NCBI GenBank assembly: GCA_903941105.1 | Contig: CAJANL010000199.1 | Span: 1-64,000 of the forward strand | Source: an uncultured Rhodospirillaceae bacterium | GTDB taxonomy: Bacteria; Pseudomonadota; Alphaproteobacteria; Rhodospirillales; Magnetospirillaceae | Reading direction: 5' to 3' | DNA: 64,000 bases | In this document: positions 44,890-53,780 of the stretch, piece by piece | How the letters are laid out: the number at the start of each line of letters is the position of its first letter | How positions within the stretch are numbered: the stretch's first letter is position 1 | Notes under the pieces: model-generated | Told to the model about the DNA's origin: nothing | Seen by the model: only the letters and a program-made list of their open reading frames with translations | The model's database searches: none | Position numbers and translations under genes: made by a program

Positions 44890-45390
44890 ATGCGCCTCGG
44901 CCTGCTCGTCGCCCTGGTGGTGATGCTGCTCGACCAGCTGACCAAGTGGCTGGTGGTCGAAAAGGTGCTGCGGCCCGAGGGGGTGTGGGAGACGCCGTTC
45001 TACACCCACACCCGCATCGAGATCGGCCCCTATCTCGAAATCGTCATGGCGTGGAACCGCGGCGTCAGCTTCGGCATCTTCAGCAATGACGGCATGCTCA
45101 ACGTGATCCTGCTGTCGGGCATGTCGCTGCTGATCACCGTCCTGCTGGTGATCTGGATGCACCGCAATCCCGCCCTTCTGGTGCGGCTGGCGCTGGGGCT
45201 GATCGTCGGTGGCGCGCTCGGCAACGTGGTGGATCGGCTGCGCTTCGGGGCGGTGGCCGATTTCCTCTATTTCCACTGGGGCAGCCACTACTGGCCTGCC
45301 TTCAATTTGGCGGATTCGGCCATTACGGTCGGCGCCTGCGTGCTGGTACTGGATTCCTTGTTTGCCGGCCGTCAATCGTCTAAGAATTAA
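44890..45390 (+). CDS. lspA: Lipoprotein signal peptidase (signal peptidase II)
   Basis: 166 aa. An aspartyl protease with four membrane helices that cleaves the signal peptide of prolipoproteins in the inner membrane. DQLTKWLV, AWNRGVSFGIF, GNVVDRLRFGAVADFLYF and FNLADSAITVG carry the conserved residues, including the two catalytic Asp. It lies 4 bp after ileS and just upstream of a lipoprotein gene that would be one of its substrates. Confidence 0.96.
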   Translation: MRLGLLVALVVMLLDQLTKWLVVEKVLRPEGVWETPFYTHTRIEIGPYLEIVMAWNRGVSFGIFSNDGMLNVILLSGMSLLITVLLVIWMHRNPALLVRLALGLIVGGALGNVVDRLRFGAVADFLYFHWGSHYWPAFNLADSAITVGACVLVLDSLFAGRQSSKN

Positions 45391-45394
45391 GGCC

Positions 45395-45976
45395 ATGATC
45401 AAGACCAACTCCATAGGCCATCCGGTCCTTCGCACCGCCGCCCTCGGCCTGCTGCTGACGCTGTCGCTTTCGGGCTGCGGCGAAACCAAGCGCGCCCTGG
45501 GATTCGAGAAGACGCCGCCGGACGAATTTCAGGTGGTGCAGCGCGCCCCCCTGACCCTGCCGCCCGACTTCGCGTTGCGGCCGCCCGCGCCGGGTGCCAG
45601 TCGCCCGCAGGAGAGCAGCACGCGGGAGCAGGCCCGCCAGGTGCTCACCGGCACCCGCCAGGTCAATCCCATCAGCAGCCAGGGCCGCACCAACGGCGAC
45701 ATGGCGCTGTTGAAGCGGGCCGGCGCCGAAAACATCCAGCCCGACATCCGCTCCCTGGTGAACAAGGAATCCCAGGCGCTGGCGGATGCCGACAAGACCC
45801 TCGGCGACAAGATCGTCTTCTGGCGCAAGCCCGAACCGACCGGCGAAATCCTCAACCCGTCGGCCGAGTCACAGCGTCTGCGGCAAAATCAGGCTTTGGG
45901 CAAGTCGCTGTCGGACGGCGAGACCCCGCTCATCGTCCGCCGCAAGAAGGGCTGGCTTGAGGGCGTGTTCGACTGA
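45395..45976 (+). CDS. DUF3035 lipoprotein, BamF-like
   Basis: 193 aa from the ATG at 45395. The signal peptide ends in the lipobox LSGC. The mature protein starts with a BamC-like unstructured stretch (DEFQVVQRAPLTLPPDFALRPP), then has DUF3035 features with Gln/Ser-rich helices and ends with KKGWLEGVF. In alphaproteobacteria this family has been described as BamF, an accessory subunit of the outer-membrane BAM complex. It is the last gene of ribF-ileS-lspA-bamF, 4 bp after lspA. The family is clear, the BAM link comes from knowledge of the family. Confidence 0.83.
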   Translation: MIKTNSIGHPVLRTAALGLLLTLSLSGCGETKRALGFEKTPPDEFQVVQRAPLTLPPDFALRPPAPGASRPQESSTREQARQVLTGTRQVNPISSQGRTNGDMALLKRAGAENIQPDIRSLVNKESQALADADKTLGDKIVFWRKPEPTGEILNPSAESQRLRQNQALGKSLSDGETPLIVRRKKGWLEGVFD

Positions 45977-46249: not shown

Positions 46250-46323
46250 TGGGGGATCGTCTAACGGTAGGACAGCAGACTCTGACTCTGCTTATCGGGG
46301 TTCGAATCCCTGTCCCCCAGCCA
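46250..46323 (+). tRNA. tRNA-Gln (anticodon CTG)
   Basis: A full cloverleaf can be drawn: acceptor TGGGGGA/TCCCCCA, D arm GTC...GAC with AACGGTAGG, anticodon stem GCAGA/TCTGC with loop CTCTGAC (anticodon CTG), T arm CGGGG/CCCTG with loop TTCGAAT, discriminator G and encoded CCA. It reads CAG codons. Its 3' end serves as the integration site of the mobile element to its right, which restores the end of the gene. Confidence 0.97.
46299..46323 (+). repeat. Attachment site copy attL (tRNA-Gln 3' end)
   Basis: GGTTCGAATCCCTGTCCCCC followed by AGCCA, 25 bp covering the T arm to CCA. It is identical to 52685-52709. A tyrosine integrase gene begins 117 bp further on. Confidence 0.9.
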
Positions 46324-46439
46324 CTTTCTTCCGCACCCCCTCGGAATCCCTCGGTCTAGGCCATCGCCACCGCCGCCGGGCGCCCGCCTGTAGCACATTG
46401 GTGTCGCACATCCGGCCGCGGCCACCCGAGGCCGACACC

Positions 46440-48368
46440 ATGCCGACCCTTGCACACCTCTCGATTCGCGGGCACACCTATACGTGGCGGCGGCGCCTGC
46501 CGGTGGCCGTTGCCGCCATCGCCGGTCGCAGCCATGTCGCCCGGTCGCTGCGGACCACCGACCGACGCCGGGCCCGGCTGGCGGCGCTGAAATTGGACTT
46601 AGCCTACGAGGAAGCGATGACCAAGCTGCTGATGACCTGGGGCGCTACCCCTCCGACCAAGCTGGAGATCGACGCCATCCTCGCCGACCTCTGCCGGGTC
46701 CTCATGGATGAGGTCGAAACCTGGGCGGCCACCCGGACACCCTTCGCCAATGCCCAGACCTTCGCCGATGAAGACGACTTTTTTGCCAACGGTGGCGACA
46801 TCATCGAGGAGCAGTTTTATTCCCCCATCGGGCAGCAAGACCATTGGGAGGCGTTGCTAGAAATCGCCGACTACGACGAGGCCAAGACACGGCTCAAACC
46901 GATCCTGATGGCGCGCGGCTATTCGGTCAATGAGGGTGACGTCGCCTTCAAGAAGTTGGCCTTGCAAGCCATGAAGACGGGCATCGCCGTATTCCGGCGG
47001 GCGTCGAAGGATGTCCTCGCTGCCCCCACCGACGATGATGTGGCGGAGCTATTAGGAGAGGCCACCCCGCCGGCCAGCTTGCCGGCGGTGGTTCCGCCGT
47101 CACCATTGCCCGTTGCTGTCCAGCCCGCCGCACCGACGGCGCCCGCCGTGAACCCCGATCCCACCCTGGCGGAGGCGTTCGACAATTTCATCGCCGACAA
47201 GATCGTCGCGGATTGGAGCCCCAAGGCCAAGCGAGAGGCGCAGACTACCAAGCGCTTGGCTCTCGACTACTTCGGAGCCGATTGCCGCGTCGGCGCCATC
47301 ACCAAGAAATGGGCTAAATCCTTTCGATCCGACTTGGCCGGCATCCCCAAGCTCCAAGGCAAAGGCCGTTTCGCCGGGCTGACAATGGCAGAGGTCATTG
47401 CGGCGGCGGAAGCCCTCAACGCCGCCTACGATGAGTTCGGGGTGCCCGAGGAGGACCTGGAGTGGCCGGGTCTCACGGGTGATGGGCGGGTAGCGAGGTT
47501 GGCGCTCAAGACCGTCAACAAGCACCTGAGCTACCTCTATGGCCTGTTTGAGGCCCTGGTCGCCGAGGAGGAAACGGTCAAGCAGAACCCGTTTGCCCGC
47601 CTTCGCTACAGCAAGGCGTCGATCGCCAAAAAGGTCAATGAGCAGCGGCAGGCCTGGAGCGACGTGGACATTCAGGCGCTGCTCGCCACCCCGATTTGGC
47701 AGGGTTGCGCAACCGAAGCTCGCCCGTCCTGGTCGGGCGATAAAGTTTACAAGAACGCTGGCTACTGGACGCCGCTACTCGGCATGCTGGCCGGGCTGAG
47801 GCTAGAGGAGGCTTGCCAGCTTGCCCCCGCCGACATCGAAGACATCCATGGCATCCCCTGCATCCACATCCGGCCCGGCGAAGGAAAGACGCTCAAGACC
47901 GCCGCCGCCATTCGGCAAATCCCAATCCATCCGCTGTTGATCAAAGCCGGCCTGCTGGATCACGCCGCCGCGATGCGGAAGGCGGGGCATCGCCAGCTCT
48001 TCCCCGAGCTCGAACGGGGTGGCCAGTTCCAGCTCCTAGGCTACCGTGTCTCGCGGCGGTTCACCGATTACCGACGTCAGTGCGGCCTCTACGAACCCGG
48101 CAAGGACTTCCATAGCCTGCGACACAGCTTTAACACTCACCTTTTCCACCGGAAGATCCCAGCCGAGATGATCAGCGTCTTGATGGGGCACAAACTCGAC
48201 GGTGAGACGGCTGGCCGCTACTTCAAAGGCTACGAGGGCGAGCACTTGGCTGAGGCCATCAGCAGGATCGACTACGGAATTGACGATCGCATTCTCAAGC
48301 CGATGGGCTACGTCAAAACCGACAATTGCTCAGCAAACGCAGAGCAAATGCACCCCGATGCCCTTTGA
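46440..48368 (+). CDS. Tyrosine-type site-specific integrase
   Basis: 642 aa from the ATG at 46440, just inside attL; the track frame starting at 46155 runs through the tRNA and is not meant. The N-terminal part (LSIRGHTYTWRRRLPVAVAAIAGRSHV) resembles DUF6538, found at the front of large integrases of proteobacterial islands. A Pro/Ala-rich linker lies near 220-245, then a SAM-like core-binding domain. The catalytic domain has Arg in LAGLRLEEACQL, Lys in GEGKTLKTA, H-x-x-R in FHSLRHSF, LMGH and Tyr in GRYFKGY, all present. It should catalyse integration at and excision from tRNA-Gln. Confidence 0.93.
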   Translation: MPTLAHLSIRGHTYTWRRRLPVAVAAIAGRSHVARSLRTTDRRRARLAALKLDLAYEEAMTKLLMTWGATPPTKLEIDAILADLCRVLMDEVETWAATRTPFANAQTFADEDDFFANGGDIIEEQFYSPIGQQDHWEALLEIADYDEAKTRLKPILMARGYSVNEGDVAFKKLALQAMKTGIAVFRRASKDVLAAPTDDDVAELLGEATPPASLPAVVPPSPLPVAVQPAAPTAPAVNPDPTLAEAFDNFIADKIVADWSPKAKREAQTTKRLALDYFGADCRVGAITKKWAKSFRSDLAGIPKLQGKGRFAGLTMAEVIAAAEALNAAYDEFGVPEEDLEWPGLTGDGRVARLALKTVNKHLSYLYGLFEALVAEEETVKQNPFARLRYSKASIAKKVNEQRQAWSDVDIQALLATPIWQGCATEARPSWSGDKVYKNAGYWTPLLGMLAGLRLEEACQLAPADIEDIHGIPCIHIRPGEGKTLKTAAAIRQIPIHPLLIKAGLLDHAAAMRKAGHRQLFPELERGGQFQLLGYRVSRRFTDYRRQCGLYEPGKDFHSLRHSFNTHLFHRKIPAEMISVLMGHKLDGETAGRYFKGYEGEHLAEAISRIDYGIDDRILKPMGYVKTDNCSANAEQMHPDAL

Positions 48369-48835
48369 AATTTAACGAAAATCCGACTCGGTGTCGTGGT
48401 TTAACGGCGCAGGCCAATGCGGCGGTGGATGGCGCCAACGGTTCGGAATTGGTGTTTCTTGGGGGGCAGGCAGGCCATCGCCTGCCCAAGCCCACCTGTT
48501 CGATAATTCTCGTTTGGCGTGTCCTTGCTTGAGGAATATCGCGTAAAGGCGGATAATTTCGATTAATAATTGCCGGTTCATTGACTTGGCGCGTTATGGT
48601 TGATTTCGGATAGGGCTGTTTTTTCGCCCGTGAGGGCGGTTGCGCGCCCCCCTTGGCACCTATGTTCCACGGGCCTTTTGGGCCGCTCTCTGTGATGCGG
48701 GTTGTTCCTCGCCGACGGGGATCACCCGATACTCACAGTTCTTCACATTATCATCCCGCCACCGACAGGAATACAGCCGCCACCATTTCCACGACACCAA
48801 TATCCGTAACTAGTAACGCAGCTAGGAACGGATCA
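48369..48835. other. Gene-free stretch inside the mobile element
   Basis: After the integrase stop a hairpin GGGCAGGC-aggccatc-GCCTGCCC (48463-48486) may act as terminator. From 48500 to 48620 the DNA is AT-rich (gcggataatttcgattaataattgcc), unlike the rest of the window, with TTGACT at about 48581 as a possible -35 box. No frame is convincing. This is a natural place for a promoter or control region of the element. Confidence 0.45.
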
Positions 48836-49276
48836 ATGCTCGAAAACATTCACAATGACCCCGACGAATCCGATGATGACGCCGCTCACAACGACGCTAT
48901 CTCTGACGACGATCTCCGTGCCCGTGGGCTGACCAAAGTAATGGCATGGGTCGAGGACAAGTCCGGCATCGAGACCAAGTCCAAGGCTGCCGGCCGGACG
49001 AGCCGACATCGTCAAAAATTGGCCGCGCTCGGTATCGTGCAATTTAATCTTGACGCCCCCGCCGCTGATGACGCCCGCGCCGCCCTTAAGGCCGCTGCCG
49101 CCGCGCTCATTAACGGTCAACTCGACTCCGGAACTCTCCACACCGTCGCCCTCGGCGCGGTGCCCGACCAAGGGGCGGCCGAAGGGCTGTCGGCCGATCT
49201 CGCGGCTTGCCAGCGGGCGTTAGAAGCCGGTGGGTGGCGGGGCTGGGCGGTGCGCCGCCTCGTCGGGATTGCTTAA
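48836..49276 (+). CDS. Hypothetical element protein, possible RHH-type DNA-binding protein
   Basis: 146 aa from the ATG at 48836, with AGGAA upstream. The first 25 residues are very acidic (DPDESDDDAAHND). The middle AGRTSRHRQKLAALGIVQFNL resembles the ribbon-helix-helix start of small antitoxin or MobC-like DNA-binding proteins, where R-x-R-L-x-x-x-G-h is followed by a beta strand. The C-terminal half is Ala-rich helix. It converges with the serine recombinase gene, the stops overlapping by 4 bp. A regulator of excision or mobilization is a guess. Confidence 0.55.
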   Translation: MLENIHNDPDESDDDAAHNDAISDDDLRARGLTKVMAWVEDKSGIETKSKAAGRTSRHRQKLAALGIVQFNLDAPAADDARAALKAAAAALINGQLDSGTLHTVALGAVPDQGAAEGLSADLAACQRALEAGGWRGWAVRRLVGIA

Positions 49277-49956
49277 TCGCCCGCGCATCGGGCGACCACA
49301 TTGCGGACGGTCGTCGGGTACCAGCGCCGGCCCCGGGCGGTGCGGATGCCGCGCGCGTTCAGGGCCTCGGCCACACCGGCAAACGTGGCGATGCCGGCCG
49401 CCTCAATCTGCTGGATGACGGGTCTTAGGGCGAGGGCAAACGAATCGGCGCGGTCACGTCCAGCGGCGGCTCCCCTGGCCGATGCCCGGCGCTGTTCTTC
49501 GTGGCGGCCGGGAATCGACCATCCGAGCCGCTGGCCGCGCGCCTTGGCCGCACCAAGGGCGGCCGATGTCCGGGCGCTAATCGCCTCGGCCTCGTGTTCC
49601 GCGACAGCCGCCATGATGTGGATCGTCAGCCTGTTCGCCTCTGGATAATCGCAAGCCAGGAATTCAACCCCGGCCACCATCAAACCTGAGATGAAGTGGA
49701 CGTTACGGGCTAGACGGTCGAGCTTGGCGATGACCAAGATGGCGCCATCCTGCCGGCAGCGGTCGAGGGCACGGGCGAGCGCCGGGCGGTCCACACGGCG
49801 TCCGGTTTCGATCTCAGTCTCCTCGCCGTTGACCACACCACCGACGCCCCGAACGTAGGCAGTGACCGCCGCCTGCTGGGCTTCAAGGCCTAGGCCGGAT
49901 TGCCCCTGGCGGTCGGTGCTGACGCGGTAATATGCGATGAACCTCTTGGCCTCCAT
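49273..49956 (-). CDS. Serine recombinase, resolvase/invertase family
   Basis: 227 aa from the ATG at 49956 (GGAG 8 bp upstream); a GTG at 49983 would add 9 residues. The catalytic domain has YRVSTDRQGQSGLGLEAQ with the nucleophile Ser, LVIAKLDRLARNVHFISGL with the active-site Arg pair, and AEHEAEAISART. The C-terminal HTH part has GIATFAGVAEALNARGIRTARG and the minor-groove segment WYPTTVRNVV. It is of resolvase size, not a large serine integrase. It may resolve dimers of the excised circle or relaxed intermediates. It lies 45 bp after the relaxase gene. Confidence 0.92.
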   Translation of the reverse strand: MEAKRFIAYYRVSTDRQGQSGLGLEAQQAAVTAYVRGVGGVVNGEETEIETGRRVDRPALARALDRCRQDGAILVIAKLDRLARNVHFISGLMVAGVEFLACDYPEANRLTIHIMAAVAEHEAEAISARTSAALGAAKARGQRLGWSIPGRHEEQRRASARGAAAGRDRADSFALALRPVIQQIEAAGIATFAGVAEALNARGIRTARGRRWYPTTVRNVVARCAGD

Positions 49957-50001
49957 GGCCGTTCTCCGTTCAGTTAGAAACACGCTACGTTCGTTGGGGA
50001 T

Positions 50002-51273
50002 TTACAACTCGGGGCCGGCCCGCTGATGCGCCCGCATAGGGGTCGCCGGCGGCGGCGCCTTCGGCCCCCATGACGCGGTTGATCGGCTCGGGGTGATGCG
50101 GCGCCAATCCACCCGGCCGAACACGGCGGCCATCGCCGAGCCGGCGGCGGCAACCGACTGCCCAACCCGCCGTCCGACTGCTTCGGCCTGGGCGATCAGT
50201 GCCACCAGCGCAGAAGGACGGTAGCGGCCAGGGCGATCCCGGCGCCGGTCGTCAGCCACAGCAGGGGCGTCCCCACCCTCGGCGACACCGGCGGCCGGGC
50301 CGCAAGGCGGCTCAACTGCGCGGTCAACTCGGAAAGCTGCTGAGTCACCGCCTGAAGCGACCTGACCGGCTCCTTGAAGCCGGCCAGCGTCGCCTGCGTC
50401 TGCTGTGCCAATCGGTCGATACCCTGGGCGGCCGTGGCGATCCGGGCCTGGGCTGCCCTTGTGTCCGCAAGGTTGTGAACGAAGAATTCCGTCGGGTCCT
50501 GATCCATGATCGTCGTGCTCCTGCTGCTGAGCGTGGGCGGCGTTGAGGCGCCGCACCAGCGCGTTGGTTTCGGCGCGGGTGCTGCCCTCGTCGATCTCGG
50601 CCCAGGCACGATTGCCGGGGCCGGAAGTGGTCTTGCTGGTGGCGGCCTGGCCCTTGTCGGCGATGGCGCGGGCGCGCGGCCCCTCGTGGATCGTGGGCAG
50701 GCGGTCGATGCCGCGATCTCGGTACGATCGATGGTCGATCATGCTCTCGGGGCCGTAGCCCCAGGCCGTCATCATCCCGTTATGGATTTCTGTCCAGGCG
50801 GCCCGAAGGGCCTCCAGCGCCCCCTTGCGGGACATGCCGATGATCTTCGAAGGCCGTCCGCCCTTGCCCCCCGGCGGGCGCGGCCATGGCTCGTCGTAGG
50901 CGGCGATGTGGGCGTGCGGGTTGGCGGCCGCCCTGCCCTGGGCGTGGAGGACGGCAACGTAGGGAGCGGCGCCCTGGGTAATGTGCTCGGCCAGGGCGGT
51001 CATCAGCGCCACTTGTTGCGCCCTCGTCGCCTCCAGCGGCAACGCGACGATGATTTTTTCGACGATGCGGCCGTTCTTCCCCGCAGCGGCCGCCCGCGCG
51101 GCACAATATTCCCGCAATGCGGGTCTGCTGTGGTCGGCGAGGCCGGTGCGTTGATCGACCACCTCGACCGTCGTCCGCGAGTGAACGATGTAGATCAGGT
51201 GCCCGGCCGTCCGGCCCTTGGCCCCCAGCTCATGGATGGCGATGTGGTCGTGGTCGAGGCTGTAGAGGGCCAT
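50002..51273 (-). CDS. MobA/MobL-like relaxase
   Basis: 423 aa. MALYSLDHDHIAIHELGAKG is the N-terminal segment, in which relaxases carry the catalytic Tyr; AVLHAQGRAAANPHAHIAAYDE near residue 119 is the H-...-N-P-H-x-H metal motif. It should nick at oriT and lead the strand to a recipient. Residues about 260-355 overlap another gene in a different frame and look like arginine/glycine-rich shadow; the last 65 residues (VALIAQAEAVGRR...) again look like real protein and might be a separate product from a GTG near 50207. It overlaps the 130-aa gene by TGATG. Confidence 0.78.
   Translation of the reverse strand: MALYSLDHDHIAIHELGAKGRTAGHLIYIVHSRTTVEVVDQRTGLADHSRPALREYCAARAAAAGKNGRIVEKIIVALPLEATRAQQVALMTALAEHITQGAAPYVAVLHAQGRAAANPHAHIAAYDEPWPRPPGGKGGRPSKIIGMSRKGALEALRAAWTEIHNGMMTAWGYGPESMIDHRSYRDRGIDRLPTIHEGPRARAIADKGQAATSKTTSGPGNRAWAEIDEGSTRAETNALVRRLNAAHAQQQEHDDHGSGPDGILRSQPCGHKGSPGPDRHGRPGYRPIGTADAGDAGRLQGAGQVASGGDSAAFRVDRAVEPPCGPAAGVAEGGDAPAVADDRRRDRPGRYRPSALVALIAQAEAVGRRVGQSVAAAGSAMAAVFGRVDWRRITPSRSTASWGPKAPPPATPMRAHQRAGPEL
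50196..50507 (-). CDS. Small membrane protein nested in the relaxase gene, MobB-like
   Basis: 103 aa from the ATG at 50507 (AGGAG upstream), in another frame inside the relaxase gene. MDQDPTEFFVHNLADTRAAQ leads into a long Gln/Leu-rich helix of coiled-coil type (LAQQTQATLAGFKEPVRSLQ), then one C-terminal membrane helix (LLWLTTGAGIALAATVLLRWW). Composition is natural, whereas the relaxase frame is shadow-like here. In RSF1010 the mobB gene is nested in mobA and encodes a membrane protein that helps contact with the transfer machine; this has the same layout. No sequence kinship is claimed. Confidence 0.7.
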   Translation of the reverse strand: MDQDPTEFFVHNLADTRAAQARIATAAQGIDRLAQQTQATLAGFKEPVRSLQAVTQQLSELTAQLSRLAARPPVSPRVGTPLLWLTTGAGIALAATVLLRWWH

Positions 51274-51665
51274 CAGCGGGTAACCCCGAATGGGGTTACC
51301 CTGAGGTGCGCCCTCCTCCCTCCTTCTTGTCCTGCCTTCCTCCCGGTCCCTTCCCAGCCAGGGCGCCGGAACCGCCCGGCCAACCGGGCGGCAATGTGGA
51401 GGTCATGGGCGAAGACGTCGGCAGCGACCCCCCAGGCGCGAACGGCGAGCCAGACGGCAACGGCGTTGTCGTTGTCGAAGTTGGCGTCCAGGGCGACAGC
51501 GAGGTCCGCGAGGTCGCGGTTATCCGGCTGTCCTGTTTCGACGATCCGGCGAACGAGGCCGACGAAGGCGGTGGCGTGTTGGTGCTGCACGGGGTATCTC
51601 GATTGGTGGCTCCAATCGGGATATGGGCGCAGCGCGAAGGCGCCGAAGGGTGTTTTTGCGGCCAC
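51273..51665 (-). CDS. Hypothetical protein, first gene of the mob operon
   Basis: 130 aa from a GTG at 51665. The core (LADLAVALDANFDNDNAVAVWLAVRAWGVAADVFAHDLHIAARL) is helical, and the C-terminal 30 residues are basic and Gly-rich (GRFRRPGWEGTGRKAGQEGGRR). Its end overlaps the relaxase start (TGATG), so it is translated with it. Position directly after the oriT candidate and before the relaxase fits a MobC-type accessory protein, but no MobC motif is seen. Confidence 0.55.
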   Translation of the reverse strand: MAAKTPFGAFALRPYPDWSHQSRYPVQHQHATAFVGLVRRIVETGQPDNRDLADLAVALDANFDNDNAVAVWLAVRAWGVAADVFAHDLHIAARLAGRFRRPGWEGTGRKAGQEGGRRAHLRVTPFGVTR

Positions 51666-51684
51666 CCCGGCTACGAGCCGGAAG

Positions 51685-51736
51685 CCAGGGCCATAGCGTC
51701 CGCCGTCAGGCGGAGGCTTAAATCCCCTTGCCCTGG
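51685..51736. other. Nested inverted repeats, candidate oriT
   Basis: CCAGGGC (51685-51691) pairs with GCCCTGG (51730-51736), and inside lies TCCGCC-gtca-GGCGGA (51699-51714). The site is between the leftward mob operon and the rightward permease gene, where oriT regions of mobilizable elements usually lie. It could instead be a terminator or operator. Confidence 0.4.
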
Positions 51737-51801
51737 GTCCAAGGCGGCAGCATTATCAACCTCGCTCAACACGCAGTCGCATAATTTTTCGGGAGTTGAA
51801 C

Positions 51802-52401
51802 ATGGGCAGATTCATTAAGATCATTGGCGCGGCGGTCGCCGTCGTTCTGGCCTCCGGGGCCGCCGAAGCTCATACTTTCGGTTTGCATGGGGCCGGTTTC
51901 GAACACGGTTTCGGCCACCCCTTCGGTGGCCTTGATCACCTTCTGGCGATGGTGACCGTTGGCTTATGGGCTGCCCAGCGCGGCGGCAGGGCCGTCTGGT
52001 TGGTCCCGGCCACCTTCATGGCTGCGATGGTCTTTGGCGGCCTGCTCGGACTGGAAGGTATCGCGCTGCCGATGGTCGAACTCGGCATTGCGGCGTCGCT
52101 GATGGTCCTCGGCTCCGTCGTGGCCTTTTCGTTCCAACCGCCGCTGTGGGTTGGCATGAGCATGGTGGCGGCGTTCGCCATCTTCCATGGGCACGCACAT
52201 GGCGCCGAAATGCCCGAGGCTGCATCGCCGGTCCTCTATGCGGTGGGTTTCCTGCTCGCAACGGGCCTACTTCATTCCATCGGCGTCTCCGCCTGCCTGT
52301 TGGCTCGCCGCAAGGAAGTGTTTGCCACCTTCGCGGATCGGGCGATTCGCTCGGCCGGCGCCGTTGTCGCCGCCAGCGGGGTGCTGTTCGCGTTTCTATG
52401 A
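51802..52401 (+). CDS. HupE/UreJ family metal permease
   Basis: 199 aa from the ATG at 51802 (GGGAG 7 bp upstream). A cleaved signal-like first helix ending AEAHTFG is followed by HGFGHPFGGLDHLLAMVTVGLWAAQ, the His/Asp motif of HupE/UreJ, and AIFHGHAHGAEMPEA, the second His-rich metal motif. Six to seven membrane segments. Members move nickel or cobalt, often for hydrogenase or urease, neither of which is in the window. It is the only evident cargo of the mobile element. A hairpin follows. Confidence 0.9.
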   Translation: MGRFIKIIGAAVAVVLASGAAEAHTFGLHGAGFEHGFGHPFGGLDHLLAMVTVGLWAAQRGGRAVWLVPATFMAAMVFGGLLGLEGIALPMVELGIAASLMVLGSVVAFSFQPPLWVGMSMVAAFAIFHGHAHGAEMPEAASPVLYAVGFLLATGLLHSIGVSACLLARRKEVFATFADRAIRSAGAVVAASGVLFAFL

Positions 52402-52684
52402 CATGATTGGGGTGGGGTAGCGCGCTGGTTGCCTGCCTCACCTCCTCAGTCAAGGGGGGCAGGGCACCGCCCTGCGGCGAGCATCATCGCCATATCCGCC
52501 CCCACCTGGTCGGCCCGCGCGGTTGGCCTCGCCGCCCCACCGCCGTCCTCGCGTCCTGCCGAGCAATCCGGCGTAACCGCCGGCACAGCCGCCGTTGCCT
52601 GTGGCACACCGTTGTGGCACATTTCACCCCATCCCTGTTGGCCTTCACCCTGGAGGCCGAGGAAATGTGCGACGCTGCGGGACC
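52402..52684. other. Right arm of the mobile element without a gene
   Basis: Apart from the hairpin at 52459-52475 nothing can be recognised. The track ORFs are Arg/Pro-rich shadows. The stretch ends at the right attachment repeat. Confidence 0.4.
52459..52475 (+). terminator. Hairpin after the HupE-type gene
   Basis: GCAGGGC-acc-GCCCTGC, a perfect 7-bp stem 58 bp after the stop, without a T-run. Confidence 0.4.
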
Positions 52685-52709
52685 GGTTCGAATCCCTGTC
52701 CCCCAGCCA
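52685..52709 (+). repeat. Attachment site copy attR
   Basis: A 25-bp exact copy of the tRNA-Gln 3' end (GGTTCGAATCCCTGTCCCCC plus AGCCA) without the rest of a tRNA. It marks the right junction of the element; the sequence beyond should be the original flank of the tRNA gene. Confidence 0.9.
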
Positions 52710-52752: not shown

Positions 52753-53780
52753 CATCGAGGTGCGGTCTCAGGCGCCACCTTCGGGAAGAGCACGGTGAAG
52801 GTCGTCCCGTGGCCCACCGTGCTGTCGCAGGATAATGTACCGGCCAGCGGGCCGGTGGCCAGGTTGTAGGCGATGTGCAGGCCGAGGCCGGCGCCGCCGC
52901 TGCCGCGTCGGGTGGTGAAAAAGGGGTCGAAGATGCGCTTCAGGTTGGTCTCGGGGATACCCTTGCCGTCGTCGGAATAGACCAACCGTACCAGTTCGCC
53001 CTCCAGCCGCACCACCAGCGACAACCGCCCGCGCCGGCCGGGCTCGTAGGCATGCACCACTGAATTCATCACCAGATTGGTCAGAATCTGCGACAGGGCG
53101 CCGGGAAATCCGTCGACGCTGACCCCCGGCTGGCAGTCCAATTCCACCGTGTGGCCACCCAGGCGAAGGCCTGGGCTGAGGCTGGACATGGTCTCGCGGA
53201 CACTGGCGGCGACGTCGAAGGGGCGACGCTCGGCGCTGGTCCGGTCCACCGCCACCTGCTTGAAGCTGCGGATCAACGCCGCCGCCCGCTCGCAGTTGGC
53301 CAGCACCAGCCGCGAGGTATCACCGGCGGTGGCCATGAAGCGCTCGAACTCGTCGATGGCGATGTCGTCGGCCTCGAACAGGCGGCGCATCTCGCGCACG
53401 GCGTCGTCGAGGTGCGACGCGCAGGACAGGGCGATTCCCACCGGCGTATTGATCTCGTGCGCCACCCCGGCCACCAGGGCTCCCAGCGAAGCCAGCTTTT
53501 CCGACTGCACCAGGTTCGCCTGGGTCTCTTCCAGACGGGCCAGGGCGTCTTCGGCTTCGGTGCGGCGGCGCTCCAGTTCGTGATTGAGGTTGGCCAACTG
53601 ACCCTGCAGGCGGTCGGACACCTTTACCAGCCGACGCTGCTCGCGCACGCTGCGGCGGAAAGCCTCCATCAGGGCGACGACACCGTCCCGCACCTCCTCG
53701 GGCTGGTCCGCCACGCGGAGCCGCAGCGCCTCGGCCTCTTCAAGGATGCGGTCCTCGGCGGCGAAAAGGTTGAAGGCCAT
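52752..53780 (-). CDS. Cytosolic sensor histidine kinase
   Basis: 342 aa, no membrane helix. Residues 25-95 are a coiled coil (LEEAEALRLRVADQPEEVRD to LARLEETQANLVQSEKLASLG). HisKA has ALVAGVAHEINTPVGIALS, with His near 107. The ATPase has N-box LTNLVMNSVVHAY, DDGKGIPETNLKRIFDPFFTTRRG and GAGLGLHIAYNLA. It is the HAMP-less 4-type kinase often used with phosphatase-like partners. It overlaps the SiaC-like gene by one base region (stop/start at 53780), so it is coupled to the SiaB-SiaC pair and may take input from it. Confidence 0.9.
   Translation of the reverse strand: MAFNLFAAEDRILEEAEALRLRVADQPEEVRDGVVALMEAFRRSVREQRRLVKVSDRLQGQLANLNHELERRRTEAEDALARLEETQANLVQSEKLASLGALVAGVAHEINTPVGIALSCASHLDDAVREMRRLFEADDIAIDEFERFMATAGDTSRLVLANCERAAALIRSFKQVAVDRTSAERRPFDVAASVRETMSSLSPGLRLGGHTVELDCQPGVSVDGFPGALSQILTNLVMNSVVHAYEPGRRGRLSLVVRLEGELVRLVYSDDGKGIPETNLKRIFDPFFTTRRGSGGAGLGLHIAYNLATGPLAGTLSCDSTVGHGTTFTVLFPKVAPETAPR

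Follow-up and report, generated by a model that had tools for sequence, protein, structure and literature searches.

What kind of unit lies between two copies of a tRNA end in an alphaproteobacterial chromosome, and how might it move? The window analysed here comprises 64,000 nucleotides of contig CAJANL010000199.1 from an uncultured Rhodospirillaceae bacterium (assembly GCA_903941105.1). A sequence-only reading of it had proposed that positions 46299–52709 are a compact integrative mobilizable element (IME) inserted in tRNA-Gln(CTG) between exact 25-bp att repeats. Our analysis upholds this proposal through the repeats, the intact tRNA, the integrase and the relaxase. The element is very probably a canonical IME carrying a mobilization module of the IncQ/RSF1010 type (MOBQ).

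The target tRNA-Gln(CTG) gene (46250–46323, forward strand) is intact, the element having restored its 3' end (ARAGORN; Rfam RF00005, 60 bits). The 25-bp repeat, GGTTCGAATCCCTGTCCCCCAGCCA, extends from the T-arm to the CCA and is identical at 46299–46323 (attL core) and 52685–52709 (attR core, both forward strand), with a start-to-start distance of 6,386 bp. A search of the host's own 4.48-Mb draft genome returned two copies, which are the two ends of the element. The window reads CTTTC after the left repeat and ACTTTTGCTG after the right one; in most genomes of the host's taxonomic family the CCA of the tRNA is followed by A, with ACTTTT in several. The sequence 3' of the right repeat (ACTTTTGC...) resembles the native post-tRNA-Gln sequence in other genomes of this family. 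Likewise, the attR flank of a tRNA-Gln island in genome G139 (ACTTTTGCCAATAAATACAATGCGTTAGCAGA) is nearly the same as what immediately follows tRNA-Gln in G136 (ACTTTTTACAACAAATACAATGCGTTAGCAGA). These matches favour reading the right repeat as the displaced native end of the tRNA and the left 3'-end copy as the contribution of the element. Beside the homologous histidine-kinase gene in relatives the right repeat is absent; its presence there as native DNA would have weakened the sequence-only reading.

Integration is attributed to a 642-aa tyrosine integrase with an N-terminal DUF6538 domain (46440–48368, forward strand; Pfam PF20172, 9.4e-13; PF00589, 2.1e-10), relatives of which lie beside tRNA-Gln genes. 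A pattern search located paired 9-bp candidate arm-type sites just inside both ends: TGTAGCACA-TTGG-TGTCGCACA at 46389–46410, 66 bp inside attL, and TGTGGCACA-CCGT-TGTGGCACA at 52600–52621, 64 bp inside attR, both on the forward strand. The window contains exactly two occurrences of the pattern TGTnGCACA-N4-TGTnGCACA, both in the same orientation, against an expectation of 0.03 even when two mismatches are allowed. In related integrase loci, about half of the tRNA-proximal intervals contain two copies of a 9-mer, at least 8/9 identical and spaced by 13 bp, compared with 2% of random window intervals; at the other spacings from 10 to 17, this identity was reached once or never. The pair in L132 (tRNA-Asn), for example, reads TGTCGCACA-CATG-TGTCGCACA. 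These pairs are probably integrase arm sites. TGTnnCAC-like 9-mer pairs with the exact 13-bp spacing were seen between the tRNA and the DUF6538 integrase in L130, L132, L133, L137, L143, L144, L147, L152, L154 and L158. Since 13-bp-spaced pairs occupy this interval in many genomes, DUF6538 may be the arm-DNA-binding domain that recognises them. Its predicted model (pLDDT, a per-residue confidence score, of 87) has a strand-strand-helix-strand arrangement followed by long helices. A fold search with this model gave no significant PDB match, and the domain went unmentioned in the open-licence literature searched, so we put arm binding forward as a hypothesis. It is a concrete one for a domain of unknown function that is common in integrases.

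The element also encodes a 236-aa small serine recombinase of the resolvase/invertase type (49273–49983, reverse strand; PF00239, 3.2e-24), 18 bp downstream of the relaxase gene and on the same strand. Large serine recombinases do occur in some relatives (L230, L236), which would fit integration by the serine enzyme rather than by the tyrosine integrase. However, the protein is short and has only a short C-terminal recombinase match, as opposed to the large serine integrase of L230, which has 554 aa; a 25-bp core at a tRNA 3' end with arm sites is typical of tyrosine integrases; and it is the relatives of this tyrosine integrase that adjoin tRNA-Gln. Integration by the serine enzyme is thus highly improbable, and we retain the tyrosine integrase as the integrating enzyme. 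The best plasmid relatives of the serine recombinase are 53–59% identical and reside on alphaproteobacterial plasmids of 5–20 kb as well as larger ones, some adjoining rep or par genes. As this type is common on small alphaproteobacterial plasmids, the enzyme is most likely an accessory plasmid-type resolvase. Sixteen relatives of it, seven at 50% identity or above, were found on viral contigs, which held no relatives of the integrase or relaxase. No dedicated res site was seen near the gene in the intervals checked.

The mobilization module centres on a 423-aa relaxase of the MobA/MobL type (50002–51273, reverse strand; PF03389, 3.3e-17). A profile built from it and four relatives has as its best PDB match 2NS6, Mobilization protein A (5.9e-12), indicating similarity to R1162 MobA. 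The catalytic Tyr and His triad (Y28, H110, H120 and H122) do not vary among the five aligned relaxases. Directly upstream of the gene, on the opposite strand, a motif search identified an origin of transfer (oriT; 51278–51317, forward strand). It consists of GGGTAACCCC-GAAT-GGGGTTACCC-TGAG-GTGCGCCCT (51278–51314), a hairpin with a perfect 10-bp inverted repeat followed by the nic core at 51306–51314. The published MOBQ oriT consensus, NWACCNNTAAGTGCGCCCTYNN, is likewise preceded by an inverted repeat (PMC3832669), and the window sequence agrees with it at 15 of 17 specified positions.

A scan of 84,980 species genomes yielded 24 close relaxase loci, nearly all alphaproteobacterial. Altogether, 27 loci (the window and 26 others) were examined for oriT, and in every one the 200 bp upstream of the relaxase contain a hairpin with TGCGC(C/A)(C/T)T after it. 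The 5' arm of the hairpin takes 12 different forms across the 27 loci with pairing kept, the fourth pair being TA, AT, GC or CG. Across 1.18 Mb of other loci, the strict motif matched solely beside these relaxases, and 30 mononucleotide-shuffled versions of the window gave no match.

Within the relaxase gene lies a +1-frame open reading frame (ORF) encoding 103 aa (50196–50507, reverse strand), conserved in frame and position, whose mobB-like product appears coiled-coil-like with a C-terminal membrane helix. Such nested ORFs, encoding about 105–150 aa and starting near relaxase codon 220–255, are present in 21 of the 26 relaxase genes checked (the window and 20 of 25 others); by eye they are coiled-coil-like, and most end in a hydrophobic helix. 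RSF1010 has the same arrangement, with mobB nested in mobA. A relaxase with its catalytic residues, an oriT with an inverted repeat and a nested membrane-protein gene together identify the module as MOBQ1/IncQ-type.

Upstream of the relaxase and co-directional with it is p130 (130 aa; 51273–51665, reverse strand; from the ORF list), whose 3' end overlaps oriT and which is a possible mobilization accessory. Homology between p130 and the upstream gene of L056/L057 was considered and dropped, there being no significant similarity to the L056 gene at that place. No divergent mobC was recognised in the element; in Rhodobacteraceae relatives, a small divergent gene occupies the mobC place, on the other side of oriT.

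The element thus combines an integrase (PF00589 and DUF6538), direct repeats with the target preserved, and a relaxase with oriT, and none of its proteins matched a coupling, secretion or pilus family. Unlike an integrative conjugative element (ICE), it encodes no type IV secretion system of its own. Its PHROGs matches are limited to integrase, invertase and transposase families and weak unknowns, with no phage structural or packaging protein, which sets it apart from prophages and phage satellites. Nor is it an IncQ plasmid: its ORFs include no rep gene and no RepA/RepB/RepC replicon. The gene list given earlier was accurate as to integrase, serine recombinase, relaxase, one cargo gene and the lack of secretion genes, and left p146 (below) unnamed. 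What it termed a relaxase operon comprises the 130-aa ORF, the relaxase with its nested ORF and the serine recombinase. The oriT, the nested ORF and the tandem TGTnGCACA pairs had gone unnoticed.

Relatives of the relaxase are hosted by Azospirillum, Magnetospirillum moscoviense, Thalassospira and many Rhodobacteraceae; one metagenome-assembled genome labelled Flavobacteriaceae may be mis-binned. In 13 relatives, tRNA 3'-end direct repeats of 14–53 bp surround the relaxase, at tRNA-Ser, -Phe, -Met and -Asn genes, and delimit units of 7.0–14.2 kb; no bounded unit seen is as short as that of the window. These boundaries bear on a different origin, in which a small mobilizable plasmid was captured once in the chromosome, the serine recombinase and relaxase being plasmid genes and the tyrosine integrase a later arrival. 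The plasmid habitat of the serine recombinase type and the small contigs, possibly plasmids, that carry some relaxase relatives (L056, L057) speak for such a capture. The lack of a replication gene and the 13 tRNA-bounded relatives speak against it, the latter because they make integration the habit of the family. A single capture is therefore quite unlikely as an account of the present element, although it may describe its ultimate origin.

Returning to the IME and its relatives, the integrases vary, being of Arm-DNA-bind_3, DUF6538 or large serine types. An AAA_25 (RepA-like) gene is present in L231 and L240, with similar ORFs in L222, L232 and L244, and absent from the window element. Its absence, with that of a rep gene, sets the element apart from other members and could suggest a decayed remnant, either a once-mobile IME now fixed or a larger ICE minus its secretion genes. 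The lack of a helper type IV secretion gene in the host genome points the same way. However, all main ORFs are open, the repeats are exact, and the arm pairs and oriT are perfect; relatives of similar size (7–10 kb) share the compact plan, so small size is a family trait rather than decay. We consider a decayed remnant unlikely and an intact IME the better description.

The sequence-only reading had further regarded two recombinase classes plus a relaxase in so small a unit as uncommon and as the possible mark of an undescribed alphaproteobacterial family. The family itself gains support from the 27 relaxase/oriT loci and the 13 tRNA-bounded relatives; the proposed mark does not hold. The closest relaxase locus, L230 of Azospirillum, also carries one tyrosine and one large serine enzyme (554 aa), so the combination is not unique. 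Nor is it a family trait, since the small serine recombinase was undetected in the other relaxase loci screened and the integrases differ. By sequence comparison, the defining traits of the family are the relaxase, the oriT and the nested ORF. We found no description of it in a literature search limited to open-licence papers, and it is apparently both widespread and undescribed. On balance we favour the broader view that this is a widespread, undescribed family of alphaproteobacterial tRNA-targeting IMEs with an IncQ-type cassette (hairpin oriT, relaxase and nested membrane gene) that swaps integrases and cargo freely, and that DUF6538 integrases recognise 13-bp-spaced TGTnnCAC through what would be a new arm-DNA-binding domain.

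Two members drew separate observations. In the tRNA-Asn member of Falsirhodobacter deserti (L244, 3815–8357), the integrase region seems, by eye, to be interrupted by an IS21-like ORF pair. A Thioclava plasmid relative (L223, 7343–16107) has a reverse transcriptase with a SLATT protein and a methyltransferase and helicase pair annotated around the relaxase, and some members may therefore carry defence genes.

The insertion site recurs as well. Repeats of the tRNA-Gln(CTG) 3' end occur 8.8, 18.3, 15.6 and 15.0 kb away from it in G139, G143, G149 and G122, respectively, and DUF6538 integrases lie beside tRNA-Gln genes in many genomes; judged from these sequences, tRNA-Gln(CTG) is an integration hotspot in the host's taxonomic family. 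The tRNA-Gln(CTG) islands L161, L163, L175 and L160 span 9–18 kb between tRNA 3'-end repeats, and in the G122 island (L175) a serine recombinase adjoins the tyrosine integrase. A joint search for integrase and relaxase, which the sequence-only reading had suggested, found both in L310 (G140 contig 44, 14000–26000), from a genome of that same taxonomic family. There, a DUF6538 integrase adjoining tRNA-Gln(TTG), a homologue of p146 and a divergent, more distant MOBQ relaxase share a stretch of about 6 kb. An oriT-like hairpin with TAAATGCGCCCT after it is also present; the right repeat of this island was not found.

The protein p146 (146 aa; 48836–49276, forward strand) has no significant family match. 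Three weak homologues were found in 297 genomes, and a homologue lies in the L310 island with its integrase and MOBQ relaxase. We rejected p146 as a partner of plasmid serine recombinases, as their convergent plasmid neighbours are unrelated and p146 has no plasmid match. The remaining gene, hupE (51802–52401, forward strand; PF04955, 2.6e-56), encodes a HupE/UreJ family membrane protein of the nickel/cobalt permease type. It is the sole copy in the host genome and is missing from most relatives searched, as expected of cargo. Rfam detected no riboswitch before it.

These features suggest a life cycle. The DUF6538 integrase would bind the paired TGTnGCACA sites and recombine the 25-bp cores, so that a circle of 6,386 bp is released and tRNA-Gln stays intact. 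The predicted attP junction of the circle joins ...CCCTGTCCCCCAGCCA to CTTTCTTCC..., with right-end sequence before it, and the predicted empty site has the tRNA ending in CAGCCA followed directly by ACTTTTGCTG. The relaxase would nick the strand that lies opposite its gene, at the hairpin/GTGCGCCCT site, and the nested membrane protein may help the relaxosome dock on a secretion system supplied by a conjugative plasmid or ICE in the same cell, a helper being required because the element has no such system. After transfer, the integrase would insert the circle into tRNA-Gln(CTG) of the recipient. The small serine recombinase would most likely resolve multimers of the transient circle, and HupE, presumably serving metal uptake, would travel as cargo.

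Several points weigh against this account. Excision and transfer are inferred from sequence. No excisionase gene was recognised in the element, and p130 has no established homologue. The host draft genome gave no VirB4 match, so it holds no resident helper now and one would have to come from elsewhere. That draft has an estimated contamination of 6.3%, though the element lies within one 64.9-kb contig. Among the genomes compared, none has the same flanks with an empty site. The flanking genes encode a DUF3035 lipoprotein (45209–45973) and a histidine kinase (52755–53780), and tRNA-Gln adjoins neither in other genera of the host's taxonomic family; we therefore abandoned an empty-site comparison through these genes, and comparison was limited to the short post-tRNA sequence. 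For the same reason the chromosomal junction of DUF3035, tRNA-Gln and kinase seems lineage-specific. The distance between the two genes is about 15 kb in G149 and about 130 kb in G143.

What emerges is an anatomically complete canonical proteobacterial IME, together with 26 related relaxase/oriT loci in Magnetospirillum, Azospirillum, Thalassospira and many Rhodobacteraceae. Many helpers mobilize RSF1010-type modules, so such islands could spread genes broadly among these bacteria. Because the oriT motif is shared, members of the family are easy to find and test.

Among known systems, the closest in mobilization are the IncQ1 plasmids RSF1010/R1162 (MOBQ1), which share the MobA-type relaxase (2NS6), the hairpin and GTGCGCCCT oriT upstream of the relaxase gene and, in RSF1010, the membrane-protein gene nested in the relaxase gene. 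Unlike them, the window element is integrated at a tRNA and has no RepABC replicon, no primase fusion and no recognised divergent mobC. The plasmid pHAE1 of Paracoccus likewise has an alphaproteobacterial MOBQ1 relaxase, with the oriT CATAAGTGCGCCCTCCC, but is not integrated (PMC3832669). Canonical IMEs encode their own integrase and a relaxase with oriT, lack coupling protein and mating pore, measure 5–15 kb and integrate site-specifically, and the window element resembles them in all these traits, size range included (Guedon et al. 2017, PMC5704250). According to that review, no IME then described in Proteobacteria was canonical, that is, had a relaxase without a coupling protein (PMC5704250). 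The Mesorhizobium IMEs reported in 2021 are, like the window element, alphaproteobacterial and located beside tRNA genes, the smallest being 5.8 kb. In contrast to it, nearly all have Ti-type TraACD relaxase regions, classed MOBF, and their sole MOBQ IME, at tRNA-Trp, is 98.9 kb long (PMC8627217).

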